A stretch of DNA of 64,000 nucleotides from Sphingomonas sp. 3P27F8 (GTDB taxonomy: Bacteria; Pseudomonadota; Alphaproteobacteria; Sphingomonadales; Sphingomonadaceae), in assembly GCF_005502745.1 (NCBI RefSeq), contig NZ_SCNL01000005.1:1-64000 (forward strand), written 5' to 3'. The position numbers and the translations under genes were made by a program. The notes under the pieces were generated by a model that saw nothing but the letters and a program-made list of their open reading frames with translations, ran no database searches and was not told where the DNA came from. Positions within the stretch are counted from its first letter, which is position 1. Each line of letters begins with the position of its first letter. This document shows, piece by piece, positions 17,494-37,675 of the stretch.

Positions 17494-18393
17494 TTGGCTG
17501 CACGTCCATACTGGAAGGGCCAGATCCGCCTGGCGCTCGTGTCCATCCCGGTTGAAATCTACTCGGCGACCAGGAGCGGCGCGACGATCGCCTTCAACCA
17601 GATACACGAGCCATCTGGCCAGCGAATCAAATATGAGAAGGTCGTCCCGGGCATCGGCCCGGTCGATGTGGACGAGATCGTCAAGGGCTTCGAATATGCC
17701 AAGGGCGAATATGTCCTGCTCGACGAAAATGAGATCGAGGGCGTCAAACTGGAGAGCAAGAAGACGCTCGAACTGACCCAGTTTGTGGACGCGCACGATG
17801 TCGACATGATCTATTTCGAGAAGCCCTATTATGTCGTGCCGGCCGACGATCTCGCCGAAGAGGCATTCGTCGTGCTGCGTGAAGCGCTGCGCCGCACGCG
17901 CAAGATCGGGCTCGGGCAGCTTGCGATGCGCGGTCGCGAATATGTCGTCAGCATCAAGGCCTGCGGACGCGGCATGGTAATGGAAACGCTGCGCTACGCG
18001 GACGAGGTGAACAAGGCGTCGAGCTATTTCCGCGAGATCGATGATATCGAGCCCGACGAGGAACTGCTCGATCTCGCCACCTCGCTGATAGAAAAGAAGA
18101 CGGGCAAATTCGACGCCGCGGATTTCCACGATCGCTATGCGGACGCGCTCAAGGAGCTCATAGAGCGCAAGAAAAAAGGCAAGACGCTCAATATCGAGAG
18201 CGATGACAAGGGCACGGACCCACGCGGCTCCAATGTGGTCGACCTGATGGCGGCGCTGAAGAAATCGCTTGGCGGAACGGAAAAGGCGGTGACGAGCAAA
18301 TCCTCGAGAAAGCCCGCCACGAAGCCGGTTTCGACCAAGACCAAGGCCAAGGCCAAGCCGTCAACGACTGCGCCGGCGCGCAAGCGGGCATGA
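17494..18393 (+). CDS. ku: Ku DNA-end-binding protein
   Basis: 299 residues from a TTG at 17494 with AAGGAG at 17481-17486. It begins ARPYWKGQIRLALVSIPVEIY, typical of bacterial Ku, and contains KYEKVVPG, KGFEYAKGEYVLLDENEIE, KIGLGQLAMRGREY and DIEPDEELLDLATSLIE. The last about 50 residues are a Lys/Thr/Ala-rich tail, as in many bacterial Ku proteins. Ku forms a homodimeric ring on double-strand ends and recruits LigD, the next gene, with which it overlaps by 4 bp. Confidence 0.97.
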   Translation: MAARPYWKGQIRLALVSIPVEIYSATRSGATIAFNQIHEPSGQRIKYEKVVPGIGPVDVDEIVKGFEYAKGEYVLLDENEIEGVKLESKKTLELTQFVDAHDVDMIYFEKPYYVVPADDLAEEAFVVLREALRRTRKIGLGQLAMRGREYVVSIKACGRGMVMETLRYADEVNKASSYFREIDDIEPDEELLDLATSLIEKKTGKFDAADFHDRYADALKELIERKKKGKTLNIESDDKGTDPRGSNVVDLMAALKKSLGGTEKAVTSKSSRKPATKPVSTKTKAKAKPSTTAPARKRA

Positions 18394-20906
18394 GGCGAGG
18401 AACCGCAAAAGCCACGGTCAGCCCGGCGAAAGATCCGCTCGCCCGCTATCGCGAGAAGCGCGACTTCACGCGCACGTCCGAGCCTTCGGGCGCTACCGCG
18501 CCGACGAGCGGCAACGGTTTCGTCGTACAAAAGCATGCCGCATCCCGCCTCCACTACGACTTTCGCCTCGAACTCGATGGTGCGCTGGTCAGCTGGGCCG
18601 TAACGCGCGGCCCTAGCAGCAATCCCGACGACAAGCGCCTGGCGGTGCGAACCGAGGATCATCCGCTCGATTATGCCCGGTTTGAAGGGACGATCCCCAA
18701 GGGAGAATATGGCGGCGGCACCGTGATGCTTTGGGACAACGGCACCTGGGAACCGATCGCCGGCAAGGACCCGCGCAAGACCCTGTCCGACGGCCACCTG
18801 CATTTCATCCTTCACGGCCGCCGCATGCGTGGCGAATGGATTCTCTTTCGCCTGAAACCGCGGGGAAGGGAGAAGCGCGAAAACTGGATCCTGCGCAAGG
18901 TGCAGGATGAATTTGCCGGCGGCTCCGACGATCTGGTTGGAACGCATGTTACCAGCGTCGACAGCGGGCGGACCATGGACGAGATCGCAGCCGGCAAGGC
19001 CACGCCAAAACGCAGGAAAGACGAGCCCGGGCCAGCTACGGTTACCACAAGCCGCAAGGCGGCGCCGGCCGGTCGCAGGAGGATCGCGGGCACACCGCCA
19101 GCTTTCCAGCCCGTGCAGCTCGCCACCCTTGTCGATCACGTGCCTTCCGGCGATCGCTGGCTGCACGAGTTGAAATACGACGGCTACCGGACCCTTCTCG
19201 CGATCGGCGGCGGCGAGGGTCGCGCTTACACGCGATCCGGGCTCGACTGGTCAGATCGCTTCGCAGGGCTGATCGACAGCGCGGTGAAGCTGAACGCCGA
19301 CAGCGCGCTGATCGATGGCGAGGCCGTGGTGACGCTGCCTGACGGCCGCACCAGTTTTCAGGCGCTGCAGGCCGCGCTCAAGAGCGATCCTGCTCGCATC
19401 GACTATTTTGCCTTCGATTTGCTCGAACTCGACGGCAAGGATCTCACCCTCCTGCCCTTGCTGGAGCGCAAGCGACGGCTGGCCGCGCTGATCGGCGATG
19501 AGCCGGGCCGCATCCGCTATTCGGACCATATCGTTGGCAAGGGCGAGAAGCTGCTTGAACGATTTTGCGGTGCCGGCCTCGAAGGTGTCATATCGAAGCG
19601 CATTGACGCGGCATATAGCGGTTCCCGGAGCGGCACCTGGGTGAAAACCAAATGCACCCGGCGGCAGGAGTTCGTCATCGTCGGCTGGACGCCATCGGAC
19701 AAGCAGCGCAGGTTTCGCTCCTTGCTGCTTGGCGTCAACGACAATGGCGAGCTTCGCTATGCCGGCAAGGTAGGGACCGGCTTCACCGGCGACGAGATCG
19801 AGCGCCTGATGGGGATAATGGCGCCGCTCGCGCGGAAGACACCGACCGTCAATGCACCGGCCGCAGCGGTTCGCGGCGCGCACTGGATCAAGCCGACGCT
19901 GGTCGCCGAAGTTGCCTTCATCGAATTTACCGACGAGGGCGTGCTGCGCCATTCAAGCTATCTCGGGCTCCGTGAGGACAAAAAGCCCGAAGCGGTCGTG
20001 ATCGAAACGGAAACCCCTGTCGCGATCGCCGCCCCGACCGAGCGCAGCGGGATCACGATCAGCCATCGTGAACGCGTGATCTTTGCCGAGGGAAAACTCA
20101 CCAAAGGCCAGCTCGCCGATTATTACGAGATCGTCGCGCCGATCATGCTGCCGTGGGCCGGCAGCCGCCCGATCAGCCTCGTGCGCTGCCCGCAGGGACG
20201 ATCGAAGAAGTGCTTCTTTCAGAAACATGATGCCGGCAGCTTCGGCGATGAGGTGAAGAAAGTCGGTATTCGCGGGAAGGACGGCAGCGAAGAGCCCTAT
20301 TTGTTTGTCGATAACGCGGCGGGGCTGCTGGCCTGCGTACAAATGGGTACTATCGAGTTTCATGGCTGGGGCGCGCGGATCGAGGACGTCGAGAAGGCTG
20401 ACCGGCTGGTGTTCGATCTCGATCCCGACGAGGCACTCGACTTCAGCGAGGTCGTCTCGGCCGCATTCCACGTTCGCGATGCGCTGGCCCAGATGGGGCT
20501 GATTACTTTCCCGATGCTGACCGGCGGCAAGGGCATCCACGTCATCGCGCCGCTCACTCCCGCAGCCGAATGGCCACAGGTCAAGGATTTCGCGCACCGC
20601 TTCGCCGTGGCGCTCGCTCAGGCTGAGCCCACGCGTTTCACCGCAGCGCTGGTGAAAGCCAAGCGGTCAGGCCGCATCTTCGTCGATTATCTCCGCAACC
20701 AGCGCGGTGCCACCGCAGTCCTGCCCTATAGCGCGCGCGCGCGCGAGTTCGCACCGATCGCAGTGCCGCTGACATGGGAGGAACTGCGCGATATCGATGG
20801 CGCTTCGCACTGGCACATCGGTGACGGTGCCGAGATGATAAAGCGGGCGAACTCGAAGAACCTCGTTCATTGGGGCCGCGCGGACCAGATCCTGCCGGAT
20901 TTGTGA
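18390..20906 (+). CDS. ligD: LigD, multifunctional NHEJ DNA ligase (phosphoesterase-ligase-polymerase)
   Basis: 838 residues in the order 3'-phosphoesterase, ATP-dependent ligase, polymerase/primase. The phosphoesterase part (about 30-190) has KHAASRLHYDFRLELDG and GTIPKGEYGGGTVMLWDNG. The ligase adenylation lysine is K262 in LKYDGYRT, with IDGEAVV and SGTWVKTKC following. The polymerase part (about 555-838) has VFDLDPDEALDF, the catalytic Asp motif, and GGKGIHVIAPL. It overlaps ku (ATGA). The pair is a complete minimal NHEJ system. Confidence 0.96.
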   Translation: MRRGTAKATVSPAKDPLARYREKRDFTRTSEPSGATAPTSGNGFVVQKHAASRLHYDFRLELDGALVSWAVTRGPSSNPDDKRLAVRTEDHPLDYARFEGTIPKGEYGGGTVMLWDNGTWEPIAGKDPRKTLSDGHLHFILHGRRMRGEWILFRLKPRGREKRENWILRKVQDEFAGGSDDLVGTHVTSVDSGRTMDEIAAGKATPKRRKDEPGPATVTTSRKAAPAGRRRIAGTPPAFQPVQLATLVDHVPSGDRWLHELKYDGYRTLLAIGGGEGRAYTRSGLDWSDRFAGLIDSAVKLNADSALIDGEAVVTLPDGRTSFQALQAALKSDPARIDYFAFDLLELDGKDLTLLPLLERKRRLAALIGDEPGRIRYSDHIVGKGEKLLERFCGAGLEGVISKRIDAAYSGSRSGTWVKTKCTRRQEFVIVGWTPSDKQRRFRSLLLGVNDNGELRYAGKVGTGFTGDEIERLMGIMAPLARKTPTVNAPAAAVRGAHWIKPTLVAEVAFIEFTDEGVLRHSSYLGLREDKKPEAVVIETETPVAIAAPTERSGITISHRERVIFAEGKLTKGQLADYYEIVAPIMLPWAGSRPISLVRCPQGRSKKCFFQKHDAGSFGDEVKKVGIRGKDGSEEPYLFVDNAAGLLACVQMGTIEFHGWGARIEDVEKADRLVFDLDPDEALDFSEVVSAAFHVRDALAQMGLITFPMLTGGKGIHVIAPLTPAAEWPQVKDFAHRFAVALAQAEPTRFTAALVKAKRSGRIFVDYLRNQRGATAVLPYSARAREFAPIAVPLTWEELRDIDGASHWHIGDGAEMIKRANSKNLVHWGRADQILPDL

Positions 20907-26693: not shown

Positions 26694-28751
26694 TTACTTA
26701 TCATTCTTTTTCGCGTTTCGCGCTTCGAAGCGGATATACTGCCAAAGGTTTTCCAGCTCATCATCGTCGATCTTGTCGAAACGCGGCATGGCGCGCGACG
26801 TCAGCGCCCCACCTTTCACGATGGCCCGGAAGCTCTCGCGCTGTAGCGCGGCGCTGGAACCGCGGAGATCGGGCGCGGTGCCGCCGGCGACGGCCGTGGC
26901 GCCATGACAGAAGGTGCACTGGAGATGATAAAGGATGCCACCCTTCTCGACCCGGGCCGGATCCAGCTTGATCGACGGATCATCCAGCGCCTCGGCCTTC
27001 ATCATACGCGGCGGCGTCGCGGGAAGCTGCGCTTTCGCGTCGAGCGCGAATGTCAGCAAACGGCGCGGTTGCAGCCCGTAGACCCAGCCGTTCGGCCGGC
27101 CGTTCTCGCCGTACATCCCGGCCGGGCTGATAAGCAATGACACATATTGCTTGCCCTTGAACGCATAGGTGATCGGCGGCGCGGTGATGCCGAGCTTGGC
27201 ATCGAACCGCCACAGTTCCTTGCCGCTCGTCGCATCCCAGGCGTGGAAGATACCATCCATATCGCCCTGAAATACAAGGCCGCCCGCTGTGGTCGCCGTG
27301 CCGCCGGCGCCTTGGAGCGGGTTCGTCCAGCGCACCTTGCCCGCCACCGGATCGTAGGCGATCAGCGCGCCCTTGCCGTCCAGCGGGTCCTTCGGATCAA
27401 ATACCGAGTCGATATCGATACCGTAGATGTAGCGATTCTTCTTCACATCGACATCGGGACGCGCGCGTGTTTGCGCGGTCTCGGTGAATTTCATGCCGAC
27501 CTGAAGATACGGAATATAATAGAGTCCGGTCTTCGGGTTATACGAACCGGGAATCCAGTTATGCCCGCCCGCGATCCCCGGATATATTGTTGCACTACCG
27601 CTTTCGTACCGGATGCCAGGCTTCTCCACCGGGCGCCCTGTGGCGAGATCGATACGATCCGCCCAGTTGGCCTTGCCGACCTTTTCCGCGGTAAGCAGTT
27701 TTCCGTTGCTGCGATCGATCATATAGGCGAACGCATTTGTCGGCGCCTGGATCAGCACCTTGCGATCCTGCCCCTTGAACTTAACGTCGGCCAGGATGAT
27801 TTCGGTCGTCGCTTTCCAATCCCACGCTTCGCGCGGGTTATACTGATAGTGCCATTTGTATTTTCCGGTATCCGCATCGACAGCGACGACCGAAGCAAGG
27901 AAGAGGTTATCCTTCCCCGGTGGCGCGCGGAAACGCCAGTTATACGGCGCGCCATTGCCGGTGCCGATAAGGATCTGATTGAATTCGGCGTCATAGGTGA
28001 TGCCGTTCCACGGCGTGCCGCCCCCGCCGTATTTCCACCATTCGCCCGCCCAGGTGCCGGCCGCCATTTTGGTGGTGTCATCCTTGTCCACCGCCGGGTT
28101 CCCCGGAACGGTGAAGAAGCGCCACAGGATCTTGCCCGTCCGCGCATCCATCGTGGTGACATAACCGCGTGCGCCGCTGTCCGCGCCGCTGTTGCCGATG
28201 ATGACCTTGCCTTTGAATACGCGCGGCGCCCCGGTGCTGGTGGCTCCGTCACCGGCGATCAGGAACGGCTCGACCCACACTTCCTTGCCGGTCTTCGCAT
28301 CGAGCGCGATCATCCGCCCGTCCCGGGAGGCATAATAGATCTTGCCATCCCAATAAGCCACGCCGCGATTGATATTATAGATGCGCAACGTTCGTTCAGA
28401 ACTGTGCTCTACAGGAGCGGCGTCATATTCCCATTTCTGCTTCCCCGAAACGACGTCGACAGCGTAGACCTTTCCCGTACCGCCACTGAAGTACAGTGTC
28501 CCGGCGACTTCGATCGGCGTCGCCTCGAGCGAATTTTCGTCGGGAAGATCCAGCGACCAAGCCAGGCCCAGCCGTCCGACCGTCGACGCGTTGATCTGGG
28601 TCAGCGGGCTGAACCGCTTTTCCGATGGATCACCGCCATGGTCCGACCATGCTGTATCGGCTGGGACGGCGCCACCCTGCGAACAGGAGGCAAGCACAAG
28701 CGCACTGGAAAGGGCCAGGGCGCCGATACCGAGATGACGAGAAGCTTTCAT
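26694..28751 (-). CDS. Lipoprotein PQQ-dependent dehydrogenase with C-terminal haem c domain (copy 1)
   Basis: 685 residues from ATG 28751. The start gives a lipoprotein signal (GIGALALSSALVLASC). Residues about 30-590 form the eight-bladed quinoprotein propeller, with W-repeats such as AVDVVSGKQKWEYD, ALDAKTGKEVWVEP and GGTATTAGGLVFQGD. The AWDWKATTE segment holds the expected catalytic Asp of PQQ alcohol dehydrogenases. A cytochrome c domain near the C-terminus has CTFCHG. The vicinal Cys-Cys pair found before NRGVA in most PQQ alcohol dehydrogenases is absent (RIYNINRGVAYW). It should oxidise an alcohol or similar group in the periplasm. It is a paralogue of 33457-35553. Confidence 0.9.
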   Translation of the reverse strand: MKASRHLGIGALALSSALVLASCSQGGAVPADTAWSDHGGDPSEKRFSPLTQINASTVGRLGLAWSLDLPDENSLEATPIEVAGTLYFSGGTGKVYAVDVVSGKQKWEYDAAPVEHSSERTLRIYNINRGVAYWDGKIYYASRDGRMIALDAKTGKEVWVEPFLIAGDGATSTGAPRVFKGKVIIGNSGADSGARGYVTTMDARTGKILWRFFTVPGNPAVDKDDTTKMAAGTWAGEWWKYGGGGTPWNGITYDAEFNQILIGTGNGAPYNWRFRAPPGKDNLFLASVVAVDADTGKYKWHYQYNPREAWDWKATTEIILADVKFKGQDRKVLIQAPTNAFAYMIDRSNGKLLTAEKVGKANWADRIDLATGRPVEKPGIRYESGSATIYPGIAGGHNWIPGSYNPKTGLYYIPYLQVGMKFTETAQTRARPDVDVKKNRYIYGIDIDSVFDPKDPLDGKGALIAYDPVAGKVRWTNPLQGAGGTATTAGGLVFQGDMDGIFHAWDATSGKELWRFDAKLGITAPPITYAFKGKQYVSLLISPAGMYGENGRPNGWVYGLQPRRLLTFALDAKAQLPATPPRMMKAEALDDPSIKLDPARVEKGGILYHLQCTFCHGATAVAGGTAPDLRGSSAALQRESFRAIVKGGALTSRAMPRFDKIDDDELENLWQYIRFEARNAKKNDK

Positions 28752-28827
28752 CAGATCGTTTTCCATTAGATGGCAATGGGCAGGGACAAGATAGGCACCG
28801 CCGATGAATGATAGCGAGGCGGTGAGG

Positions 28828-29449
28828 TCGTCAGTTTTCCTGTCGGGCTTCATTCTTGAGGGCATTTTTGTCGATCTTGCCGATGGGGAGTAGCGGCATG
28901 TCGGGGCGCAGGACGATGCGTTTGGGCACCTTGTAGTTGGCGAGGCGCTCGCGACAGAAGGCGATGAGTTCTTCGGGCGAAACCTCTGCCTGCGGGAGGA
29001 TGTAGGCGACGCCGACTTCCTGCCACAGCGGATCGGGGATGGAGACGACGGCGGCGGCGGCGACGGCTGGGTGCGCCTCGAGCGCGACCTCGATTTCGCG
29101 CGGATAGACGTTGTACCCGCCGGATTTGTACATTTCCTTGAGGCGGCCGACGATGCGGTAGCGGCCGTCGGGGCGCTGCAGGGCCTGGTCGCCGGTGCGG
29201 AACCATCCGTCGGCGGTGAAGGCATCGGCGGTGGCATCGGGCCTGCGCCAATAGCCGAGGAAGGTGTGGGATGAGCGGGTCTGCACCTCGCCCGGCTCGC
29301 CCTGCGGCACGATCGCGCCATCGGGGCCGACCAGCCGCACCTCGACGCCGGGCAGCGGCAGCCCGACCGAGTTCGACAGGATCTCCACATCGTCCGTCGG
29401 CGAAACATTCGTGATGACGGTGGTCGATTCCGTGAGGCCGTAATTGGTC
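28828..29449 (-). repeat. 622-bp inverted repeat, copy 1 (3' half of acyl-CoA synthetase 1)
   Basis: The reverse complement of 28828-29449 aligns without gaps to 32787-33408; I count about 10 mismatches. Identity stops sharply about 7-8 bp past the stop codons of both synthetases and falls off gradually upstream of 29449. Confidence 0.9.
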
Positions 29450-30423
29450 GTCATGCGCGGGCGGATGCTGCGCAACCGCTCGATCGCCTCGCGCGGCATC
29501 GCCGCGCCGCCCCAGGCGATCAGCTCGACCGACGAGAGATCGAACCGCGCGAAATCGGGCAGCGCCAGTTGCAGGTGGAACGTGCTCGGCACCGAGGTCC
29601 AGACAGTAACCCCCTCCTCCCCGATCAGCTCGAGCGCGCGTACCGCATCGAAATGCTCCAGGAACACCAGCTTGCCGCCCGATACGAACACCGGAATGCT
29701 GACGTCCACGACGCAACCGATGTGGTTGATCGGGTAATAGTTCAGTTGCACCCGCCGGGAGACCGGCCGCTCGGCATTGTGCCGGTGCGCGGCCTGGATG
29801 ACGCCGTGATGGTGCAGCAGAGCGCCTTTCGGCGCGCCGGTCGATCCCGACGTATAGACCAGCAAGCACGGATCCCGATCGCCGCAGCCAGCGCGTGCGG
29901 CGGCCAACGCCTCGCCCGATATCGCGGCGCCGGCGGCCAGGAATGATGCCATGCTCACCACGCCATGGCCAAGGCTCTCTGCGCCATCGCCAAGACCTTG
30001 CTCGAATGCGACGACATGGCGCACCGCTGGGCAGGCCTCGCGCAGAGCCGCGATATCTTCACCGTAATAACGATCGCCGACCGTGGCGCGGACCAGCATG
30101 ACGCTCGGCTCGGAGTCCGTAACGACGTGCAGCAGTTCCGGCAGCCGGCATTTCGGGTTCAGCCCGACCCAGATAGCACCAATCGACGCAGTTGCCAGAA
30201 AAGCGATGAAATAATCCGGGCACGGCGTTTGCAGCGTCGCCACGCGATCACCCTTGCCGACGCCTGCCGCGAGCAACGCCCGCGCCAGCGCTTCGACCCG
30301 ATCATGCACCTCGCCGAAGGTTACCCGCTGATCTTCCAGGACCAGCGCCACCTCGTCCGCGGAACGCGCGGCATGCCAGGCAGTGTAGTCGCTAATGCGG
30401 TGCAGAACGGGCGGCTGGACCAT
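28831..30423 (-). CDS. AMP-forming acyl-CoA synthetase (copy 1)
   Basis: 530 residues. ANL-superfamily motifs are all present: LVYTSGSTGAPKGALLHH (phosphate loop), NYGLTESTTV, GWFRTGDQALQRPDGRYRIVGRLKEMYKSGGYNVYP (hinge) and a C-terminal lysine region PIGKIDKNALK. It activates a carboxylate with CoA. It is the first gene of a leftward unit with PQQ dehydrogenase 1 (79 bp downstream) and the TonB receptor. Its C-terminal 200 residues are almost identical to synthetase 2 while the N-terminal halves differ substantially. Confidence 0.93.
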   Translation of the reverse strand: MVQPPVLHRISDYTAWHAARSADEVALVLEDQRVTFGEVHDRVEALARALLAAGVGKGDRVATLQTPCPDYFIAFLATASIGAIWVGLNPKCRLPELLHVVTDSEPSVMLVRATVGDRYYGEDIAALREACPAVRHVVAFEQGLGDGAESLGHGVVSMASFLAAGAAISGEALAAARAGCGDRDPCLLVYTSGSTGAPKGALLHHHGVIQAAHRHNAERPVSRRVQLNYYPINHIGCVVDVSIPVFVSGGKLVFLEHFDAVRALELIGEEGVTVWTSVPSTFHLQLALPDFARFDLSSVELIAWGGAAMPREAIERLRSIRPRMTTNYGLTESTTVITNVSPTDDVEILSNSVGLPLPGVEVRLVGPDGAIVPQGEPGEVQTRSSHTFLGYWRRPDATADAFTADGWFRTGDQALQRPDGRYRIVGRLKEMYKSGGYNVYPREIEVALEAHPAVAAAAVVSIPDPLWQEVGVAYILPQAEVSPEELIAFCRERLANYKVPKRIVLRPDMPLLPIGKIDKNALKNEARQEN

Positions 30424-30769
30424 AAAATCTCTCCTGAGCCCCGAAAAACGTCGGGTATCGATGGCGCGCCCGCGATCGTCGCCGCGTTTTGCATGACATC
30501 CCGTGCGCTTGATCGTCCCGCACGACCGAACAACCGCTCAGCTATTTTCTGAGTTACCAATCAAAGACTGAGCCTGTCAACGCTTAAAATCCGGTCGATT
30601 TTCCAGCGAAAAACGCCCTGCAGACGATCGGCGGCCCTTTGAGATATGCAGTATAATGCTGTTATATATAGGTTTTCCGAAATGACACGATTTCACGCCG
30701 CGTCCAAGTCGCCAGATTGACAAGGCCCTCGTTTTCGATGCATCATTCGAAAAAATAGGAGCAGTGGTG
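30424..30769. promoter_or_regulatory. 346-bp divergent control region of the PQQ/acyl-CoA locus
   Basis: Lies between synthetase 1 (leftward) and the MaoC gene (rightward) and is clearly more AT-rich than the flanking genes from about 30580. A rightward promoter candidate is TTGAGA (30639-30644), 17-bp spacer, TTATAT (30662-30667). The palindrome TATAA-TGCTG-TTATA (30652-30666) overlaps it and could bind a dimeric repressor such as the TetR protein encoded at 37769-38518. No gene is visible here. Confidence 0.5.
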
Positions 30770-31264
30770 ATGGATCTTGTAAATAATGCACCAGAAACGG
30801 TGCCTGGCCTTGCGGTTGGATCGGAACTTACCTCGGATTGGGTAAAGATCGATCAGGAGTTGATCGATCTTTTCAGCCGCGCGACCCTCGACAACGATCC
30901 GATGCACGTCGATCCTGAATTCGCCGCGAAGGGTCCGTACAAGGGCACGGTGGCCTTCGGCTTCATGACGATGTCGCTGATGACCCATTTCATGCACACC
31001 GCCACGGACAACGAAGGCACCGAGGATTTCGACAAGGGATATTTCCTCAATTACGGCTTCGATCGCATGCGCCTTGTTAGCCCGGTGCGCGTCAATTCTC
31101 GCGTCCGCGGCAAGTTCACCCTCACCAGCCGCGAGCCGGACGAAAAGGGTCGCTTCACGCAAAAGTACGATTGCCTCGTCGAGATCGAGGGCGAGGATCG
31201 CCCTGCGCTCGCGGGTACCTGGCTCTCGGTTTACGTTCCCCCGTCAACCTACTCGACGCTTTAG
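30770..31264 (+). CDS. MaoC-like (R)-hydratase
   Basis: 164 residues from ATG 30770, placed 7 bp after AGGAG; two GTGs just upstream are also in frame. The hydratase-2 motif is LDNDPMHVDPEFA with catalytic D41 and H46, followed by GFMTMSLMTHF. Hotdog-fold enzymes of this group hydrate enoyl-CoA thioesters. As first gene of the rightward unit, it probably acts on the CoA thioester made by the two synthetases. Confidence 0.85.
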   Translation: MDLVNNAPETVPGLAVGSELTSDWVKIDQELIDLFSRATLDNDPMHVDPEFAAKGPYKGTVAFGFMTMSLMTHFMHTATDNEGTEDFDKGYFLNYGFDRMRLVSPVRVNSRVRGKFTLTSREPDEKGRFTQKYDCLVEIEGEDRPALAGTWLSVYVPPSTYSTL

Positions 31265-31333
31265 GTTCGATCATATCCGCCGGAGACGGTGGTGCGCGGT
31301 AACGACAAAACAGACAGTGAGCAGAGGTGTTTG

Positions 31334-31669
31334 ATGGCTGACGATCTTTGGGATATCGCTCATTTTCAGGAATCCCCGACAGCTCGTGACGCACGGGGCA
31401 ACGGCAAGTCGATGTTCCGCGTGCTGATGCGCGATGAAGAGCGCCGGGTAGCATTTGCCATCAGCCGCCAGCAGCCCGGCGATTATTTCTGGGCCGAAGT
31501 GCCCTATGAGGAAATCTTCTTCGTGCACGCCGGCAAAGGTCGCGCCAGTATCGGCGGGGGCGCCTCGGTCATACTTAATCCCGGCGACTATATTGAGATC
31601 GCCAAGGGTCAAAGTTTGCGGCTCGAGGTAGATGAAGAGATCTTGAGCACGCAGACTGTACGCAGTTAG
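31334..31669 (+). CDS. Small cupin-domain protein
   Basis: 111 residues from ATG 31334. A single cupin barrel is visible: YFWAEVPYEEIFFVHAGKGRASIGGG, then NPGDYIEIAKGQSLRLEV. The canonical metal-binding His residues of motif 1 are largely missing (EEIFFVHAG keeps one His and a Glu), so metal binding is uncertain. It lies 69 bp after the MaoC gene and 161 bp before synthetase 2. Possible roles are an isomerase, a dioxygenase relative or a ligand sensor. Confidence 0.75.
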   Translation: MADDLWDIAHFQESPTARDARGNGKSMFRVLMRDEERRVAFAISRQQPGDYFWAEVPYEEIFFVHAGKGRASIGGGASVILNPGDYIEIAKGQSLRLEVDEEILSTQTVRS

Positions 31670-31830
31670 GCCGCGTGGCGGGCTGTCCATGGCAAGATCG
31701 CATGCGGGGCGTCATCGCCTTAGAAATTGAGATCGAACTGCACGCCTGACAGCTTCCTTCGCGCTTGTCCGATCGGATCAACATCGTTCCGATCGGTTTC
31801 CCTGATAGAGCAAATACAAGGTCTTTTCCG

Positions 31831-33405
31831 ATGCCGATCCCGCCTGCGCTGCCGCGTATCAGTGATTATGCAGCACTCCATGCCAAGGAGCGGCCACAAG
31901 AGACCGCGCTGGTTTCCGGCGATCGCCGGATCAGCTTCGAGGAACTGCATGATGCGGTGGAAAGCCTTGCCAAGGCCCTGATCGCGGCGGGTGTGCAGAC
32001 AGGTGACCGTGTCGCAACCCTGCAAGCCCCACGACCAGACTATTTCATCGCCTTCCTGGCAACGGTTTCGGTCGGTGCTATCTGGGTAGGCCTCAATCCG
32101 AAATATCGGTTGCAGGAACTGCTCCATGTCGTGACGGATTCGGAGCCGTGCATAATGCTCACCCGCACGGAGATCGAAGGGCGGTCGTTCGCGGCGGAGA
32201 TCGACGAACTGCGCAAATCATGTCCTGCCATCCGACATGTCGTGGCATTTGCCGGCGAACCGCCGGTGGATGGCATAGAGCCGATGGCCGCGTTTCTCGA
32301 AAAGGGCGCTGCCGTATCGCAAGAAGCGCGCATCGCAGCGCGCGACTCTGCGAAGGATCGCGACCCCTGCCTGATCGTTTACACGAGCGGATCGACCGGC
32401 GCGCCGAAGGGTGCCCTGCTCCATCACCACGGCCTCGTGCGAGCGGCAGTGGTGCACAATCAAGTGTGGCCGGTCACGCCACATAATTCGCTGAATTTCT
32501 TTCCGATCAATCACGTCGGCTGCGTCGTGGACGTCAGCATTCCCGTATTTGCCTCGGGCGGCAAGCTGGTGTTCCTGGAGCATTTTGATCCGGCCACCGC
32601 ACTTGAACTGATCGAGCGGGAAAACATCACCGTCTGGGGTTCGGTGCCGAGCACGTTCCACCTGCAACTGGCGCTGCCCGATTTCGCGCGGTTCGACCTG
32701 TCTGGTGTACAGATGATCGCCTGGGGCGGCGCCGCGATGCCGCGCGAGGCGATCGAACGGTTGCGAACGATTCAGCCGAACATGTCGACCAATTACGGCC
32801 TCACGGAATCGACCACCGTCATCACCTATGTATCGCCGACGGACGATGTGGAGATCCTGTCGGACTCGGTCGGGCTGCCGCTGCCCGGCGTCGAGGTGCG
32901 GCTGGTCGATCCCGATGGCGCGATCGTGCCGCAGGGCGAGCCGGGCGAGGTGCAGACCCGCTCATCCCACACCTTCCTCGGCTATTGGCGCAGGCCCGAT
33001 GCCACCGCCGATGCCTTCACCGCCGACGGATGGTTCCGCACCGGCGACCAGGCCCTGCAGCGCCCCGACGGCCGCTACCGCATCGTCGGCCGCCTCAAGG
33101 AAATGTACAAATCCGGCGGGTACAACGTCTATCCGCGCGAAATCGAGGTCGCGCTCGAGGCGCACCCAGCCGTCGCCGCCGCCGCCGTCGTCTCCATCCC
33201 CGATCCACTGTGGCAGGAAGTCGGCGTCGCCTACATCCTCCCGCAGGCAGAGGTTTCGCCCGAAGAACTCATCGCCTTCTGTCGCGAGCGCCTCGCCAAC
33301 TACAAGGTGCCCAAACGCATCGTCCTGCGCCCCGATATGCCGCTCCTCCCCATCGGCAAGATCGACAAAAATACCCTCAAGAATGAAGCCCGACAGGAAA
33401 ACTGA
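31831..33405 (+). CDS. AMP-forming acyl-CoA synthetase (copy 2)
   Basis: 524 residues from ATG 31831 (MPIPPALPRISDYAALHAK), aligned with the start of copy 1. A TTG start at 31765 would add a non-homologous leader. Motifs match copy 1 (VYTSGSTGAPKGALLHH, NYGLTESTTV, KSGGYNVYP). The last about 200 residues differ from copy 1 at only a few positions, while the first 300 carry many substitutions. A different N-terminal acyl pocket with a shared C-terminal lid suggests related but distinct substrates. Confidence 0.93.
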   Translation: MPIPPALPRISDYAALHAKERPQETALVSGDRRISFEELHDAVESLAKALIAAGVQTGDRVATLQAPRPDYFIAFLATVSVGAIWVGLNPKYRLQELLHVVTDSEPCIMLTRTEIEGRSFAAEIDELRKSCPAIRHVVAFAGEPPVDGIEPMAAFLEKGAAVSQEARIAARDSAKDRDPCLIVYTSGSTGAPKGALLHHHGLVRAAVVHNQVWPVTPHNSLNFFPINHVGCVVDVSIPVFASGGKLVFLEHFDPATALELIERENITVWGSVPSTFHLQLALPDFARFDLSGVQMIAWGGAAMPREAIERLRTIQPNMSTNYGLTESTTVITYVSPTDDVEILSDSVGLPLPGVEVRLVDPDGAIVPQGEPGEVQTRSSHTFLGYWRRPDATADAFTADGWFRTGDQALQRPDGRYRIVGRLKEMYKSGGYNVYPREIEVALEAHPAVAAAAVVSIPDPLWQEVGVAYILPQAEVSPEELIAFCRERLANYKVPKRIVLRPDMPLLPIGKIDKNTLKNEARQEN

Positions 33406-33408
33406 CGA
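32787..33408 (+). repeat. 622-bp inverted repeat, copy 2 (3' half of acyl-CoA synthetase 2)
   Basis: Inverted partner of 28828-29449: equal length, no gaps, about 10 mismatches by direct comparison, ending 3 bp after the stop codon TGA at 33403-33405. Codon choice in both copies within the tract is the same even at silent sites. Confidence 0.9.
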
Positions 33409-33456
33409 ACGAGGCGACAATCGCGGGCCTGAAATGTACCCGCGCAGGAGGGGGTG

Positions 33457-35553
33457 ATGCCGATGCGGACGAGGTTAATGTGGCTGACGTTGACACCGGT
33501 CGCGGTTGCGCTTGCCGCCTGCGCGGACCCGGTGGGCCAGGTGCCGGCGCCCGCGGCAGGATCTTCCCTTGATACGCCGTCTGACTGGCTGGGCCACGGG
33601 CGTGACTATCAGGAAACCAGCTTCAGCCCGTTGCAGCAGATCGACAACCGGAATGTCGCCGGCCTGAAGCTTGCCTTCTCGGTCGATCTTCCGGACGAAT
33701 CGCTGCTGGAGGCCACGCCGCTGGCAGTGAACGGGACGCTGTATTTTTCCGGCGGCCAAGGCAATGTATATGCCGTCGACGGCGCTACCGGCGAGATGCG
33801 GTGGACCTTCGACGCGCAGGCTGCCGATCATATGGGCCCGGACAGCCCGCGCTTCTACGGCGCCAATCGCGGCGTCGCCTATCTCGATGGAAAGGTGTTC
33901 GTCGCGACCAAGGACGCGCGGATGATCGCCATCGACGCCAAGACCGGGCAGCAATTGTGGTCCACCAGCTTCCGCGCACCCGGCACGGTGGCGACGAGCT
34001 CCGGCGCGCCGCGCGCGTTCAACAATCTCGTCATCATTGGCAACAGCGGCGCCGAATTCGGCGCGCGCGGCTATGTCACCGCGATGGATACGACGACCGG
34101 CAAGATCGTCTGGCGCTTTTTCACCGTTCCCGGCAACCCGGCAGTCGACAAGGACGAAACGACCCAGATCGCGTCGAAGACATGGTCGGGCGAATGGTGG
34201 AAATATGGCGGCGGCGGTACGCCATGGAATGGCCTGACCTACGATCGGGAGCTCGATACCGTCTACATCGGCGCGGGCAATGTCGGCCCGTATGATTACC
34301 CTCACCGGCAGGATGGCCGGAAGGATAACCTGTTCGTCAATTCGATCGTGGCGGTCGATGCCAAGACCGGGAAATACAAATGGCATTTCCAGTATAACCC
34401 ATTGGAAGCATGGGACTGGAAGGCGACGTCGGAGATGATCCTGACCGATCTCACCATCGATGGCGTGCGGCGCAAGGTTGTGATGCAGACGCCCTCGAAC
34501 GGCTTCCTCTACGTGATCGATCGAACCAACGGGCAATTGATCTCGGCCGGAGCGATCGGAAAGCAGAATTGGGCCGACGGGTTCGATCGCAGGACAAAGC
34601 GACCGATCGAGCGCGAAGACATCCGTTACGAAAAGGCGCCGCGGATCATGTATCCGGGGGTGTTGGGCGCGCACGACTGGCAGACCATATCGTATAACCC
34701 GCAAACCGGCCTTCTCTATATCCCCACCCATCAGATCGGCGCGAAATTCTCGCGCCCGCCCGAGGCGCTCGCGCTGGTCAAGGAGACCAAGGGCTCGTTC
34801 GCGTCGACCGGGCAAGGCGTATTGTGGGAGTTCAGCATCGATCCGAAGGATCCGCGCGACGGCAAAGGGGCGCTGGTGGCGTGGGATCCGGTTCAGCAGA
34901 AACCGCGCTGGACGGTCAATTACCCGTTCGCCTGGGCCGGTGGCACCGCCACAACCGCGGGCAATCTGGTATTCCAGGGCACGCAGGATGGATATCTGAT
35001 CGCATATGATGCCTCCACCGGCCAGCAGCTCTGGCGGTATAACGTCGGTCTTGGCGTTGTAGCGGCGCCGATCGCCTATGCGGTCGGCAAGCGACAGTTC
35101 GTCGCGCTGCTCGTCGGCTGGGGCGGCGCTGCCGGCGAGGGCGGAGACTTCTTCCAGGCGGGATGGAAGTTCGGCGCCCAGCCGCGAAGGCTCGTCGTTT
35201 TCGCGCTCGATGGCAAGGCGACGTTGCCGCCGACCGCGCCACCTGACTTCAGCATGAAGCCGGTGGACGTCGCAGGACTGAAGCTCGATCCCGCGACGGT
35301 GCAACAGGGAGCACTGAATTTCGCGCTCAACTGCGGCTATTGCCACGGTGCCAACGCCAAATCGCTGGGCGGCGCCCCCGAATTGCGCGAATCCGCCGCC
35401 GCCGCTGACATGGCGACGCTCAAGATGATCGTGCAGGGTGGTGCCCTGGCATCCCGTGGTATGCCCAAATTCCACAACATGAGCGACGAGAAGCTGCAAA
35501 CCATCTATCAGTATATCCGCTTCCGGGCTCGGGAAACGGTCCCGAAAGATTAG
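33457..35553 (+). CDS. Lipoprotein PQQ-dependent dehydrogenase with C-terminal haem c domain (copy 2)
   Basis: 698 residues from ATG 33457 after AGGAGG. The lipobox is VALAAC. The quinoprotein propeller carries YAVDGATGEMRW, AIDAKTGQQLWS and GGTATTAGNLVFQGTQDG, the AWDWKATSE catalytic region and GAHDWQTISYNP. The C-terminal haem c motif is CGYCHG, with a distal RGMPKF Met region. As in copy 1, the usual adjacent Cys pair before NRGVA is missing (RFYGANRGVAYL). It starts 51 bp after synthetase 2, mirroring copy 1. Electrons probably pass from PQQ through haem c to a periplasmic acceptor. Confidence 0.92.
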   Translation: MPMRTRLMWLTLTPVAVALAACADPVGQVPAPAAGSSLDTPSDWLGHGRDYQETSFSPLQQIDNRNVAGLKLAFSVDLPDESLLEATPLAVNGTLYFSGGQGNVYAVDGATGEMRWTFDAQAADHMGPDSPRFYGANRGVAYLDGKVFVATKDARMIAIDAKTGQQLWSTSFRAPGTVATSSGAPRAFNNLVIIGNSGAEFGARGYVTAMDTTTGKIVWRFFTVPGNPAVDKDETTQIASKTWSGEWWKYGGGGTPWNGLTYDRELDTVYIGAGNVGPYDYPHRQDGRKDNLFVNSIVAVDAKTGKYKWHFQYNPLEAWDWKATSEMILTDLTIDGVRRKVVMQTPSNGFLYVIDRTNGQLISAGAIGKQNWADGFDRRTKRPIEREDIRYEKAPRIMYPGVLGAHDWQTISYNPQTGLLYIPTHQIGAKFSRPPEALALVKETKGSFASTGQGVLWEFSIDPKDPRDGKGALVAWDPVQQKPRWTVNYPFAWAGGTATTAGNLVFQGTQDGYLIAYDASTGQQLWRYNVGLGVVAAPIAYAVGKRQFVALLVGWGGAAGEGGDFFQAGWKFGAQPRRLVVFALDGKATLPPTAPPDFSMKPVDVAGLKLDPATVQQGALNFALNCGYCHGANAKSLGGAPELRESAAAADMATLKMIVQGGALASRGMPKFHNMSDEKLQTIYQYIRFRARETVPKD

Positions 35554-35619
35554 TTGGCCAAGGGCTGCCGCGGGCCTCGACCATCTGCCCACGCTTTCCA
35601 GTGTCTTAAGGAGAATTGC

Positions 35620-36174
35620 ATGAAGATCGTGGGTGTCGGCGGCACGTTGCGTGACGGATCGTCAACCGAGCGGATCGTGGCGGCGGTGCTGGCGGCGTGC
35701 GCCGCCGCCGGGGCGGACACCGAGATGTTCGGCGGCGCACAACTGCGCGAACTGCCTCATTTCAACCCCGAGGCGCCCGAGCGCAATGCGGCAGAGCAAC
35801 GCCTCACCGAGGCAGTACGCAGCGCCGATGCCATCGTGATCGGATCGCCGGGCTATCACGGCGGCGTGTCTGGCCTGGTCAAGAACGCGATCGATCTGCT
35901 GGAAGATCTGCGGACCGATTCCCGTCCCTATTTTGAAGGTCGCCCGGTGGGTCTGGTGGTGAGTGCGGCGGGATGGCAGGCCACCGGAGTGACGCTGACG
36001 GCGCTGCGCGGCATCGTCCACGCCATGCGGGGTTGGCCGACACCGCTGGGCATCGCGATAAACTCGATCGTGCAAAAGCCGTTCGCCAGCGACGGCTCGA
36101 TCGCCGACCGCGAACTCGCTGCCGCGATCACGGCGCAGGCAAACCAGCTGATCGGCTTCATCACCCGCTCGTGA
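35620..36174 (+). CDS. NAD(P)H-dependent FMN reductase
   Basis: 184 residues from ATG 35620 with AAGGAGA upstream. Flavodoxin-like fold: VGVGGTLRDGSSTERI (phosphate-binding loop), then IGSPGYHGGVSGLVKNAIDLLED and LVVSAAGWQATG. These match the SsuE/MsuE-type reductases. It lies 66 bp after PQQ dehydrogenase 2 and before a luciferase-like monooxygenase, so it probably supplies reduced FMN to that enzyme as a two-component system. Confidence 0.88.
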   Translation: MKIVGVGGTLRDGSSTERIVAAVLAACAAAGADTEMFGGAQLRELPHFNPEAPERNAAEQRLTEAVRSADAIVIGSPGYHGGVSGLVKNAIDLLEDLRTDSRPYFEGRPVGLVVSAAGWQATGVTLTALRGIVHAMRGWPTPLGIAINSIVQKPFASDGSIADRELAAAITAQANQLIGFITRS

Positions 36175-36475
36175 CACATCCGGCACCATAAGCGGGGTCG
36201 TGATGTGTGCCCAAAATCCCTCTTGTGGGGCCATAATGAGACACCACGCCGTCATGGTGCGCCGATTGACCATCAGCGAGGGTCCCGTCGCTTGACAGCG
36301 CCCCGATTTAGCCGAAAGTGCTTTTTGATGCTGCACTCGAAACCGCCAGTTGGGATCGAAGCCCTGTCTCGATCACCGCCTCGCGATGAAGTACCGACAG
36401 CGTCGGCGACAGGGCGAAGCGCACACACGCGACGAATGGCAGTACCCGCTGATATCTACCGCACAGGAGAGAATT
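36175..36475. other. 301-bp stretch between FMN reductase and monooxygenase genes
   Basis: No gene supported. TTGACA at 36292-36297 with a weak downstream partner (AAAGTG after 17 bp) could be a promoter for the monooxygenase gene, which would then not depend wholly on readthrough from the FMN reductase. Confidence 0.35.
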
Positions 36476-37675
36476 ATGTCTGACAATCTCAAATTCGGTT
36501 CGTTCATTGCCCCGTATCATTCGCTAAACGAGGACGCAGGTCAGGCGATCGAACGCGACCTCGAACTTGTGGTCTATCTCGAAAAGCTCGGTTTTGACGA
36601 GGCGTGGATCGGTGAACATCATTCCGGCGGGATGGAGCTGGTTGGCAGCCCCGAACTGTTCATCGCGATCGCGGCGGAGCGCACCAAGAGCATCACGCTC
36701 GCTACCGGCGTGATCTCGCTGCCTTACCACAATCCGCTGATGACGGCGGAACGGATCAACTTCCTCGATCACGTCACCAAGGGCCGTGTCGTACTGGGCA
36801 TGGGCCCAGGCTCGCTGCCTACCGACGCGCAGATGCTCAGCATTCCGGTTACCGAAAGCCGCAAGCGGATGGATGAGGCGGTCGAAGTGGTCGCGGCGTT
36901 GCTCCGCGGAGAATGGGTGACGAAGAAGACCGACTGGTTCGAGCTCAATAATGCCCATCTGCAGCTACGCCCGTATTCGCGCCCGTCGATCGAAATGGTC
37001 GTGTCAAGCGTCGCATCCCCCGGCGGATCGGTTGCGGCAGGCAAGATCGGTGGCTCGATCCTGTCGGTCGCCGCTACACAGGTCGGCGGCTTCAACACCC
37101 TTGCGTCCAACTGGGCGATCGCGGAACAGTCGGCTGCCGAGCACGGTCATACCATGGATCGCTCCAAATGGCGGCTCGCCGGCCCGATGCATATCGCCGA
37201 AACGCGCGAGCAGGCGCGCAAAGACGTTGAATTCGGCATCCAGGAGTGGGCGCGCTATTTCAGCGACGTAGCCGCACTCTCGCTCATTCCGCCGGGGGCT
37301 GATCCGGTTGAGGCGCTGATCGAATCCGGGTTCGCGGTGATCGGCACCCCGGACGATGCCATCGCGCAGATCGAGCGTCTCGAAAATCAGTCGGGCGGCT
37401 TCGGCACGTTTCTGAACTTCGATACCAACTGGGCGGATTGGGAGCAGAAGAAGCGCAGCTACGAGCTGATCGCACGTCACGTCCGCCCCCATTTCAAGAA
37501 GTCGCAGACCAATCGGTCTGCGTCATGGAACTGGGCTGCTGATCGACGCGAAGAGCTTGTGCAGCAGGTTCAGGCGTCGGTCGGTGTGCGCATCGCGCAA
37601 CACGTCGCGGAAAAGGGAACGAACAATATCAATCCGGAATATCTCGCGGCGATGGGCGTCAAGACCGATAGCTGA
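36476..37675 (+). CDS. Luciferase-like (LLM) flavin-dependent monooxygenase
   Basis: 399 residues from ATG 36476 preceded by AGGAGAG. The bacterial-luciferase TIM barrel is evident: KFGSFIAPYH, GFDEAWIGEHHSGGME, TGVISLPYHNPLMTAERINFLDHVTKGRVVLGMGPG, and IGTPDDAIAQIERL near residue 300. The length and start resemble limonene 1,2-monooxygenase-type and alkanal monooxygenase-alpha-like enzymes, so a terpene, ketone or long-chain substrate is possible. It ends the rightward unit and is followed by a strong terminator. Confidence 0.88.
   Translation: MSDNLKFGSFIAPYHSLNEDAGQAIERDLELVVYLEKLGFDEAWIGEHHSGGMELVGSPELFIAIAAERTKSITLATGVISLPYHNPLMTAERINFLDHVTKGRVVLGMGPGSLPTDAQMLSIPVTESRKRMDEAVEVVAALLRGEWVTKKTDWFELNNAHLQLRPYSRPSIEMVVSSVASPGGSVAAGKIGGSILSVAATQVGGFNTLASNWAIAEQSAAEHGHTMDRSKWRLAGPMHIAETREQARKDVEFGIQEWARYFSDVAALSLIPPGADPVEALIESGFAVIGTPDDAIAQIERLENQSGGFGTFLNFDTNWADWEQKKRSYELIARHVRPHFKKSQTNRSASWNWAADRREELVQQVQASVGVRIAQHVAEKGTNNINPEYLAAMGVKTDS

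Follow-up and report, generated by a model that had tools for sequence, protein, structure and literature searches.

Probable gene conversion between the 3′ parts of two inverted acyl-CoA ligase genes in Sphingomonas sp. 3P27F8

Introduction

According to excerpts of PMC5485169, conversion between the inversely oriented tuf genes of Salmonella stays inside the gene borders and has an average unrestricted walk of approximately 1000 nt, and almost half of the events in one class of tuf conversion carried an inversion of the interval between the genes. In the available portion of PMC8262849, the inversion share for tuf is cited as up to a quarter, and inversion is given as 8% (5/59) for that study's own cassettes. 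Where selection favors different functions, a peak of divergence should stand next to a converted region, as set out in a section of PMC3924837, which concerns the human red and green opsins. Here we analyze two paralogous acyl-coenzyme A (CoA) ligase genes, ACS1 and ACS2, which lie in inverted orientation in the first 64,000 nucleotides of contig NZ_SCNL01000005.1 (hereafter the window) of Sphingomonas sp. 3P27F8, the genome of which is a 4.06 Mb draft assembly of 43 contigs (GCF_005502745.1). The locus very probably represents an old inverted ligase pair, each member with a downstream pyrroloquinoline quinone (PQQ)-dehydrogenase gene, that has been partly homogenized by intrachromosomal gene conversion.

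Results

ACS1 (28831–30423, minus strand) encodes an AMP-binding acyl-CoA ligase of 530 residues, and ACS2 (31831–33405, plus strand) encodes a paralogue of 524 residues, the ATG start of which was picked by alignment with ACS1, as the listed open reading frame (ORF) begins at TTG 31765. The two genes are divergently transcribed, with a PQQ-dehydrogenase gene downstream of each. Both proteins score above the Pfam cut-offs for AMP-binding (residues 16–392 in ACS1) and AMP-binding_C (residues 443–516 in ACS1). The 3′ 40% of the ligase genes is near-identical at silent sites, whereas silent divergence is high in the first 230 codons and in the dehydrogenase pair.

The reverse complement of 28828–29449 aligns with 32787–33408 without gaps and with 10 mismatches in 622 positions, in agreement with the first-pass annotation, which had reported a gap-free inverted alignment with about 10 mismatches. 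Upon gapless extension, the arms span 28828–29745 and 32491–33408 (918 nt at 93%), which, of the three inverted pairs found in the window with a seed of 14 and a minimum length of 60, is both the longest and the most similar. The remaining two, of 264 nt (78%) and 120 nt (72%), fall within the same two gene pairs; a direct repeat family was not detected in the window at these settings. The complete ACS1/ACS2 alignment contains 309 differences over 1572 aligned nucleotides, and its longest identical run of 296 bases is not reached in any of 20,000 shuffles of these differences (longest shuffled run, 76). When segments are scored with a penalty of 10 per mismatch, the search returns codons 325–530, which contain 10 mismatches, and none of 2000 shuffles matches this score. 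At the 3′ side, the alignment is good to 3 bases beyond both stop codons, after which mismatches occupy position 33409 and 25 of the next 30 (33410–33439); the first-pass annotation had put the end of identity within about 8 bp past the stops. When the tract was used to search its own genome, both copies and three short matches of 24–48 bases were returned (40 of 183 candidates scored).

The proportion of synonymous differences (pS, Nei-Gojobori) between ACS1 and ACS2 is 0.656 in codons 1–230, 0.442 in codons 231–276, 0.278 in codons 277–321, 0.076 in codons 322–366 and 0.024 in codons 367–530, the block borders being taken from the third-position segmentation, so that the values are not independent of it and the steps are described post hoc. 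The bootstrap ranges of the first and last blocks (0.585–0.745 and 0–0.048) do not overlap. Third positions differ at 132 of 224 sites in codons 1–230, at 27 of 91 in codons 231–321 and at 6 of 209 in codons 322–530, and the Bayesian information criterion (BIC) is best for three segments (499.8, versus 506.6 for four, 509.9 for two and 659.1 for one; five and six are also worse). In the amino-acid sequence, the segmentation borders fall at 230 and 366. The synonymous divergence is therefore not uniform along the genes, the check that the first-pass annotation had proposed. Its estimate that roughly a third of the N-terminal residues differ is close (102 of 319 aligned residues in codons 1–325), and its report of identical silent codons is confirmed, with 124 of 125 codons identical in five 25-column windows from column 375. 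The sharp switch that it described is not quite borne out, as the divergence declines stepwise, beginning at about codon 231.

The segmentation places the start of the near-identical tract near codon 322–341. Delimited by the alignment, third positions and pS, the putative youngest converted tract comprises codons 322–530, the stop codon and 3 further bases (28828–29460, minus strand, in ACS1; 32776–33408, plus strand, in ACS2), and the most alike part of the ACS1 arm, from codon 367, lies at 28828–29325 (minus strand). An intermediate zone of codons 231–321 precedes it (29461–29733, minus strand, in ACS1; 32503–32775, plus strand, in ACS2) and may reflect conversion that was older or less frequent. 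The profile is graded and not a single step, which suggests repeated or nested conversion; conversion that recurred and faded in the 5′ direction is the simplest reading of the profile.

To interpret the contrast, the pair was compared with its relatives, the N part being residues 1–230 and the C part residues 367–530. Among the 703 pairs formed by 38 relatives, 313 have N-part identities of 0.50–0.72, and the C-part identities of these comparable pairs average 0.62 with a maximum of 0.78, whereas ACS1 and ACS2 are 0.62 identical in the N part and 0.99 in the C part. With none of the 313 pairs above 0.78, the excess is not accounted for by regional constraint in the family. The identity of ACS1 and ACS2 is 0.69 in residues 1–100 and 0.56 in residues 101–230, which hardly exceeds the best values reported against the 38 relatives (0.67 and 0.52) and indicates that the ligase duplication is old. 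In trees of the pair with 46 relatives, the distance between ACS1 and ACS2 is 0.87 for the N segment, 0.215 for the middle segment and 0.014 for the C segment, and the two are sisters in all three trees, with support of at least 100/98. Five within-genome ligase pairs from other genomes have N/C identities of 0.60/0.62, 0.58/0.62, 0.56/0.64, 0.54/0.62 and 0.37/0.45, which in each pair are within 0.08; because none of these pairs are close inverted neighbors, they test constraint and not layout.

The dehydrogenase genes provide a comparison within the locus. PQQ1 (26694–28766, minus strand, start chosen) encodes a 690-residue member of the PQQ-dependent alcohol dehydrogenase family with a C-terminal cytochrome c domain, and its paralogue PQQ2 (33460–35553, plus strand) encodes 697 residues. 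The two are 52% identical, with a pS of 0.56 overall and 0.48–0.61 across seven blocks; they are uniformly old in pS, and conversion is thus not seen in this pair. The listed PQQ1 ORF of 904 residues (26694–29408, minus strand) begins within ACS1 in another frame, and the true start is probably at or near 28766.

Interlocus gene conversion is recognized by a local excess of silent-site identity between paralogues that are divergent elsewhere, and such an excess is found here (pS of 0.656 versus 0.024). Gene conversion between ACS1 and ACS2 is strongly supported by these comparisons, because the silent sites are nearly saturated at one end of the gene pair and 2.4% different at the other, the relatives lack this contrast and the dehydrogenases are uniformly old. 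RecA-type homologous recombination would be the agent. More than one episode may have occurred, with the 3′ bound set by the end of homology just past the stop codon and the 5′ side fading. The first-pass annotation had proposed recent conversion of the lid domain; the pS values, the relatives and the dehydrogenases bear out the conversion but not its restriction to the lid, as the tract starts at approximately codon 322–341 and the lid at residue 443. Since the large domain of ACS1 spans residues 16–392 and the lid residues 443–516, the tract covers the end of the large domain and the lid.

The ratio of pair divergence to the relatives' mean, taken in 24-residue windows, peaks at residues 205–228 (1.04) and 217–240 (1.29). 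In the block of residues 208–230 (29734–29802, minus strand, in ACS1; 32434–32502, plus strand, in ACS2), 15 of 23 residues differ, and the pair is less alike (identity of 0.35) than the family mean (0.50). None of the 66 relative pairs that are at least 0.55 identical in residues 1–188 is as low in this block as ACS1/ACS2. The region of residues 205–240 is presumably near or bordering the acyl pocket, an assignment that follows the AMP-binding motifs and not a structure. We infer that selection may keep the two substrate-binding cores different, with only conversions of the catalytic end and the lid persisting.

The GC content at third codon positions (GC3) is nearly equal in the two copies of the tract (0.852 and 0.842), and the N parts have values of 0.74 and 0.67 versus about 0.85 in the converted part. 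The C-minus-N contrast is +0.115 for ACS1 and +0.178 for ACS2, versus a mean of 0.008 (standard deviation of 0.040) in 48 relatives, of which one reaches 0.108 and none reaches 0.17. However, the GC3 of 15 other genes in the window ranges from 0.725 to 0.857, and because 0.85 falls within this range, the contrast is only a hint that GC-biased conversion or donor composition may lie behind the high GC3 of the tract.

Between the two ligase genes, a MaoC-like gene (30764–31264, plus strand) and a small cupin-like gene (31334–31669, plus strand; barely over the cut-off for Cupin_3 and barely under that for Cupin_2) are present, and the divergent intergenic region between ACS1 and the MaoC-like gene (30424–30763) presumably holds promoters. 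In 28700–33500, one promoter-like site (30717–30746) is found versus 1.2 expected, which is not above chance. The ligases themselves do not reach the cut-off of any named NCBIfam acyl-CoA ligase model among the best 25 of 106 models for each, the best model giving 362.6 and 370 bits versus a cut-off of 476. Acyl-CoA ligases and nonribosomal peptide synthetase (NRPS) adenylation domains belong to one superfamily of adenylate-forming enzymes, and a gramicidin synthase chain is among the ACS1 matches. Elsewhere in the window, a Ku gene adjoins a LigD gene with phosphoesterase, ligase and polymerase domains (17494–20906), which is a bacterial end-joining pair.

An adjacent ligase pair was found in none of 294 other genomes of the genus (E of 1e-180, 5 candidates scored in each), none of 396 other genomes of a family sample (E of 1e-140, 3 candidates scored in each) and none of 80 loci kept from a named collection, in which the best ligase is 61% identical. 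Genomes G619 and G631 each contain two ligase matches of 56–60% identity and G157 also contains two; in all three, the matches are either separated by about 446 kb or located on different contigs. In plasmid records, three distant ligases (best 45.8%) and otherwise only short stretches of the region are found. Among 107 loci (bit score above 70, identity of at least 30%), a ligase and a dehydrogenase occur together only in the window's own loci, which is a weak result because the genome-search loci hold only about 1.5 kb of flank; in loci L119 and L120, about 2.6 and 6.2 kb separate distant ligases (28–29%) from a dehydrogenase. Within the family sample, the best dehydrogenase match (56% identical to PQQ2; G573 contig 12, locus L117) lies beside a second dehydrogenase, and no ligase match is present in this 19.5-kb locus. 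The two adjacent PQQ-dehydrogenase relatives of L117, with a nearby relative of a luciferase-like monooxygenase, recall the PQQ2/flavin mononucleotide reductase/luciferase-like set of the window (33460–37675). In many relatives (L028, L030, L040 and L043 among the kept loci), a MaoC-like gene is directly upstream of the ligase, which suggests that MaoC-ligase may be a conserved two-gene unit; the order from the MaoC-like gene to ACS2 is kept in the window, with the cupin-like gene intervening. In a literature search judged by titles, nothing on point was found on gene conversion in acyl-CoA ligases, and no paper was found on this gene set.

Discussion

Several observations weigh against the conversion of the catalytic ends under selection for different cores, or against its details. 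The blocks of codons 231–276, 277–321 and 322–366 are short, and the bootstrap pS ranges of neighbors overlap (0.271–0.636, 0.131–0.438 and 0–0.171, respectively), which makes the number of conversion events uncertain. The amino-acid BIC does not decide between three segments (454.5) and five (454.4). Two of the control ligase pairs are higher in residues 322–366 (0.76 and 0.69), and some of the protein similarity there may therefore be constraint. The divergence ratios of windows 13–36 (0.99) and 109–132 (0.96) are only slightly under the 205–240 peak, and codons 1–200 are also silent-saturated, so that the escape from conversion extends beyond the peak and the peak alone does not explain the one-sided conversion. 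A strain or species with an orthologous ligase pair, against which the closeness of the paralogues could be judged, was not found in the genomes searched.

Conversion resolved by crossover would invert the 3.3-kb segment that the arms enclose (29450–32786) as a by-product, as precedent suggests. Such flipping is geometrically possible, and plausible because inversion frequently accompanies conversion in the inverted tuf genes, by analogy with which flips should occur at some rate. A flip would move as one piece the cores of both ligases, the intergenic region and the promoters presumed to lie in it, and the MaoC-like and cupin-like genes (which the first-pass annotation did not mention), and would swap the downstream dehydrogenase genes between the ligases. 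It is improbable, although possible, that the arms serve as a functional switch that exchanges promoter and ligase core between the dehydrogenase operons. The inverted arms with their 296-base identical run, the divergent intergenic region between them and the frequency with which inverted tuf conversion carries inversion, as given in the excerpted PMC5485169 and PMC8262849, all fit such a switch; however, the arms are coding sequence that is explicable without any switch, none of the genomes searched shows another arrangement and no recombinase was recognized among 29 proteins, a part of the window's ORFs, scanned with Pfam. Homologous recombination does not require a dedicated recombinase. 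With frequent flipping, which we likewise judge improbable, a population would be a mixture in which each PQQ-dehydrogenase operon occurs with either combination of promoter and ligase core. If so, conversion would keep the arms recombinable and selection on the cores would maintain the difference between the two states, which together would amount to a metabolic switch that lacks a recombinase of its own.

A recent inverted duplication of a whole ligase gene, followed by replacement of the N part of one copy from a divergent homologue, would likewise yield near-identical 3′ and divergent 5′ parts. This history is somewhat less probable still: the near-identity stops 3 bases past the stop codons and does not continue into a common 3′ flank, the dehydrogenase genes downstream form an old pair, and the silent divergence changes stepwise and not at one border. 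In the tree with 46 relatives, the two N parts group as sisters, so that no outside donor is seen. The import of one N part from outside, as the main explanation, is rejected by the trees and by the missing 3′ flank homology. There is little chance that assembly or polishing placed a single tract at both positions, as might be feared with a draft of 43 contigs, since the two arms retain ten mismatches, of which six fall in the first half of the tract and four in the other half, neither reading frame is broken and the graded divergence reaches beyond the tract. Strong purifying selection on the C-terminal part without recombination has a negligible probability: residues 421–444 are indeed well conserved in the relatives (mean identity of 0.81), but residues 367–530 of the 38 relatives average only 0.60 and the silent sites are near-identical too, and constraint alone is rejected by these silent sites and by the C-part identities of the relatives.

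Gene conversion between ACS1 and ACS2 would thus provide a clean natural example in which the catalytic end is homogenized while the substrate core escapes. The C-terminal parts of such ligases are unsafe for dating or classification, and the orientation of the small interval between the arms, as given by a draft assembly, should not be assumed to be fixed.

The process itself is well known in bacteria, and ACS1/ACS2 is a new, well-marked case. Like the tufA and tufB genes of Salmonella, as described in excerpts, the ligase genes are two inverted paralogues on one chromosome that are homogenized by conversion within gene bounds. However, the tuf copies are alike throughout (12 nucleotide differences are given in a legend), whereas only the 3′ 40% of the ACS pair is alike, its first 230 codons are silent-saturated and the interval between its arms is 3.3 kb. 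The human red and green opsins, in the available part of PMC3924837, resemble the ACS pair in that a low-divergence converted region lies beside a divergence peak where function may differ; unlike the opsins, the ACS pair shows conversion only 3′ of the peak. The division of core and lid matches that of the NRPS adenylation domains, in which, according to the accessible text of PMC8097286, the substrate core varies and the C-terminal subdomain, or lid, is kept. In the NRPS, however, the cores are exchanged by recombination, whereas in the free-standing ACS ligases the gene end is homogenized and the cores have apparently diverged in place.

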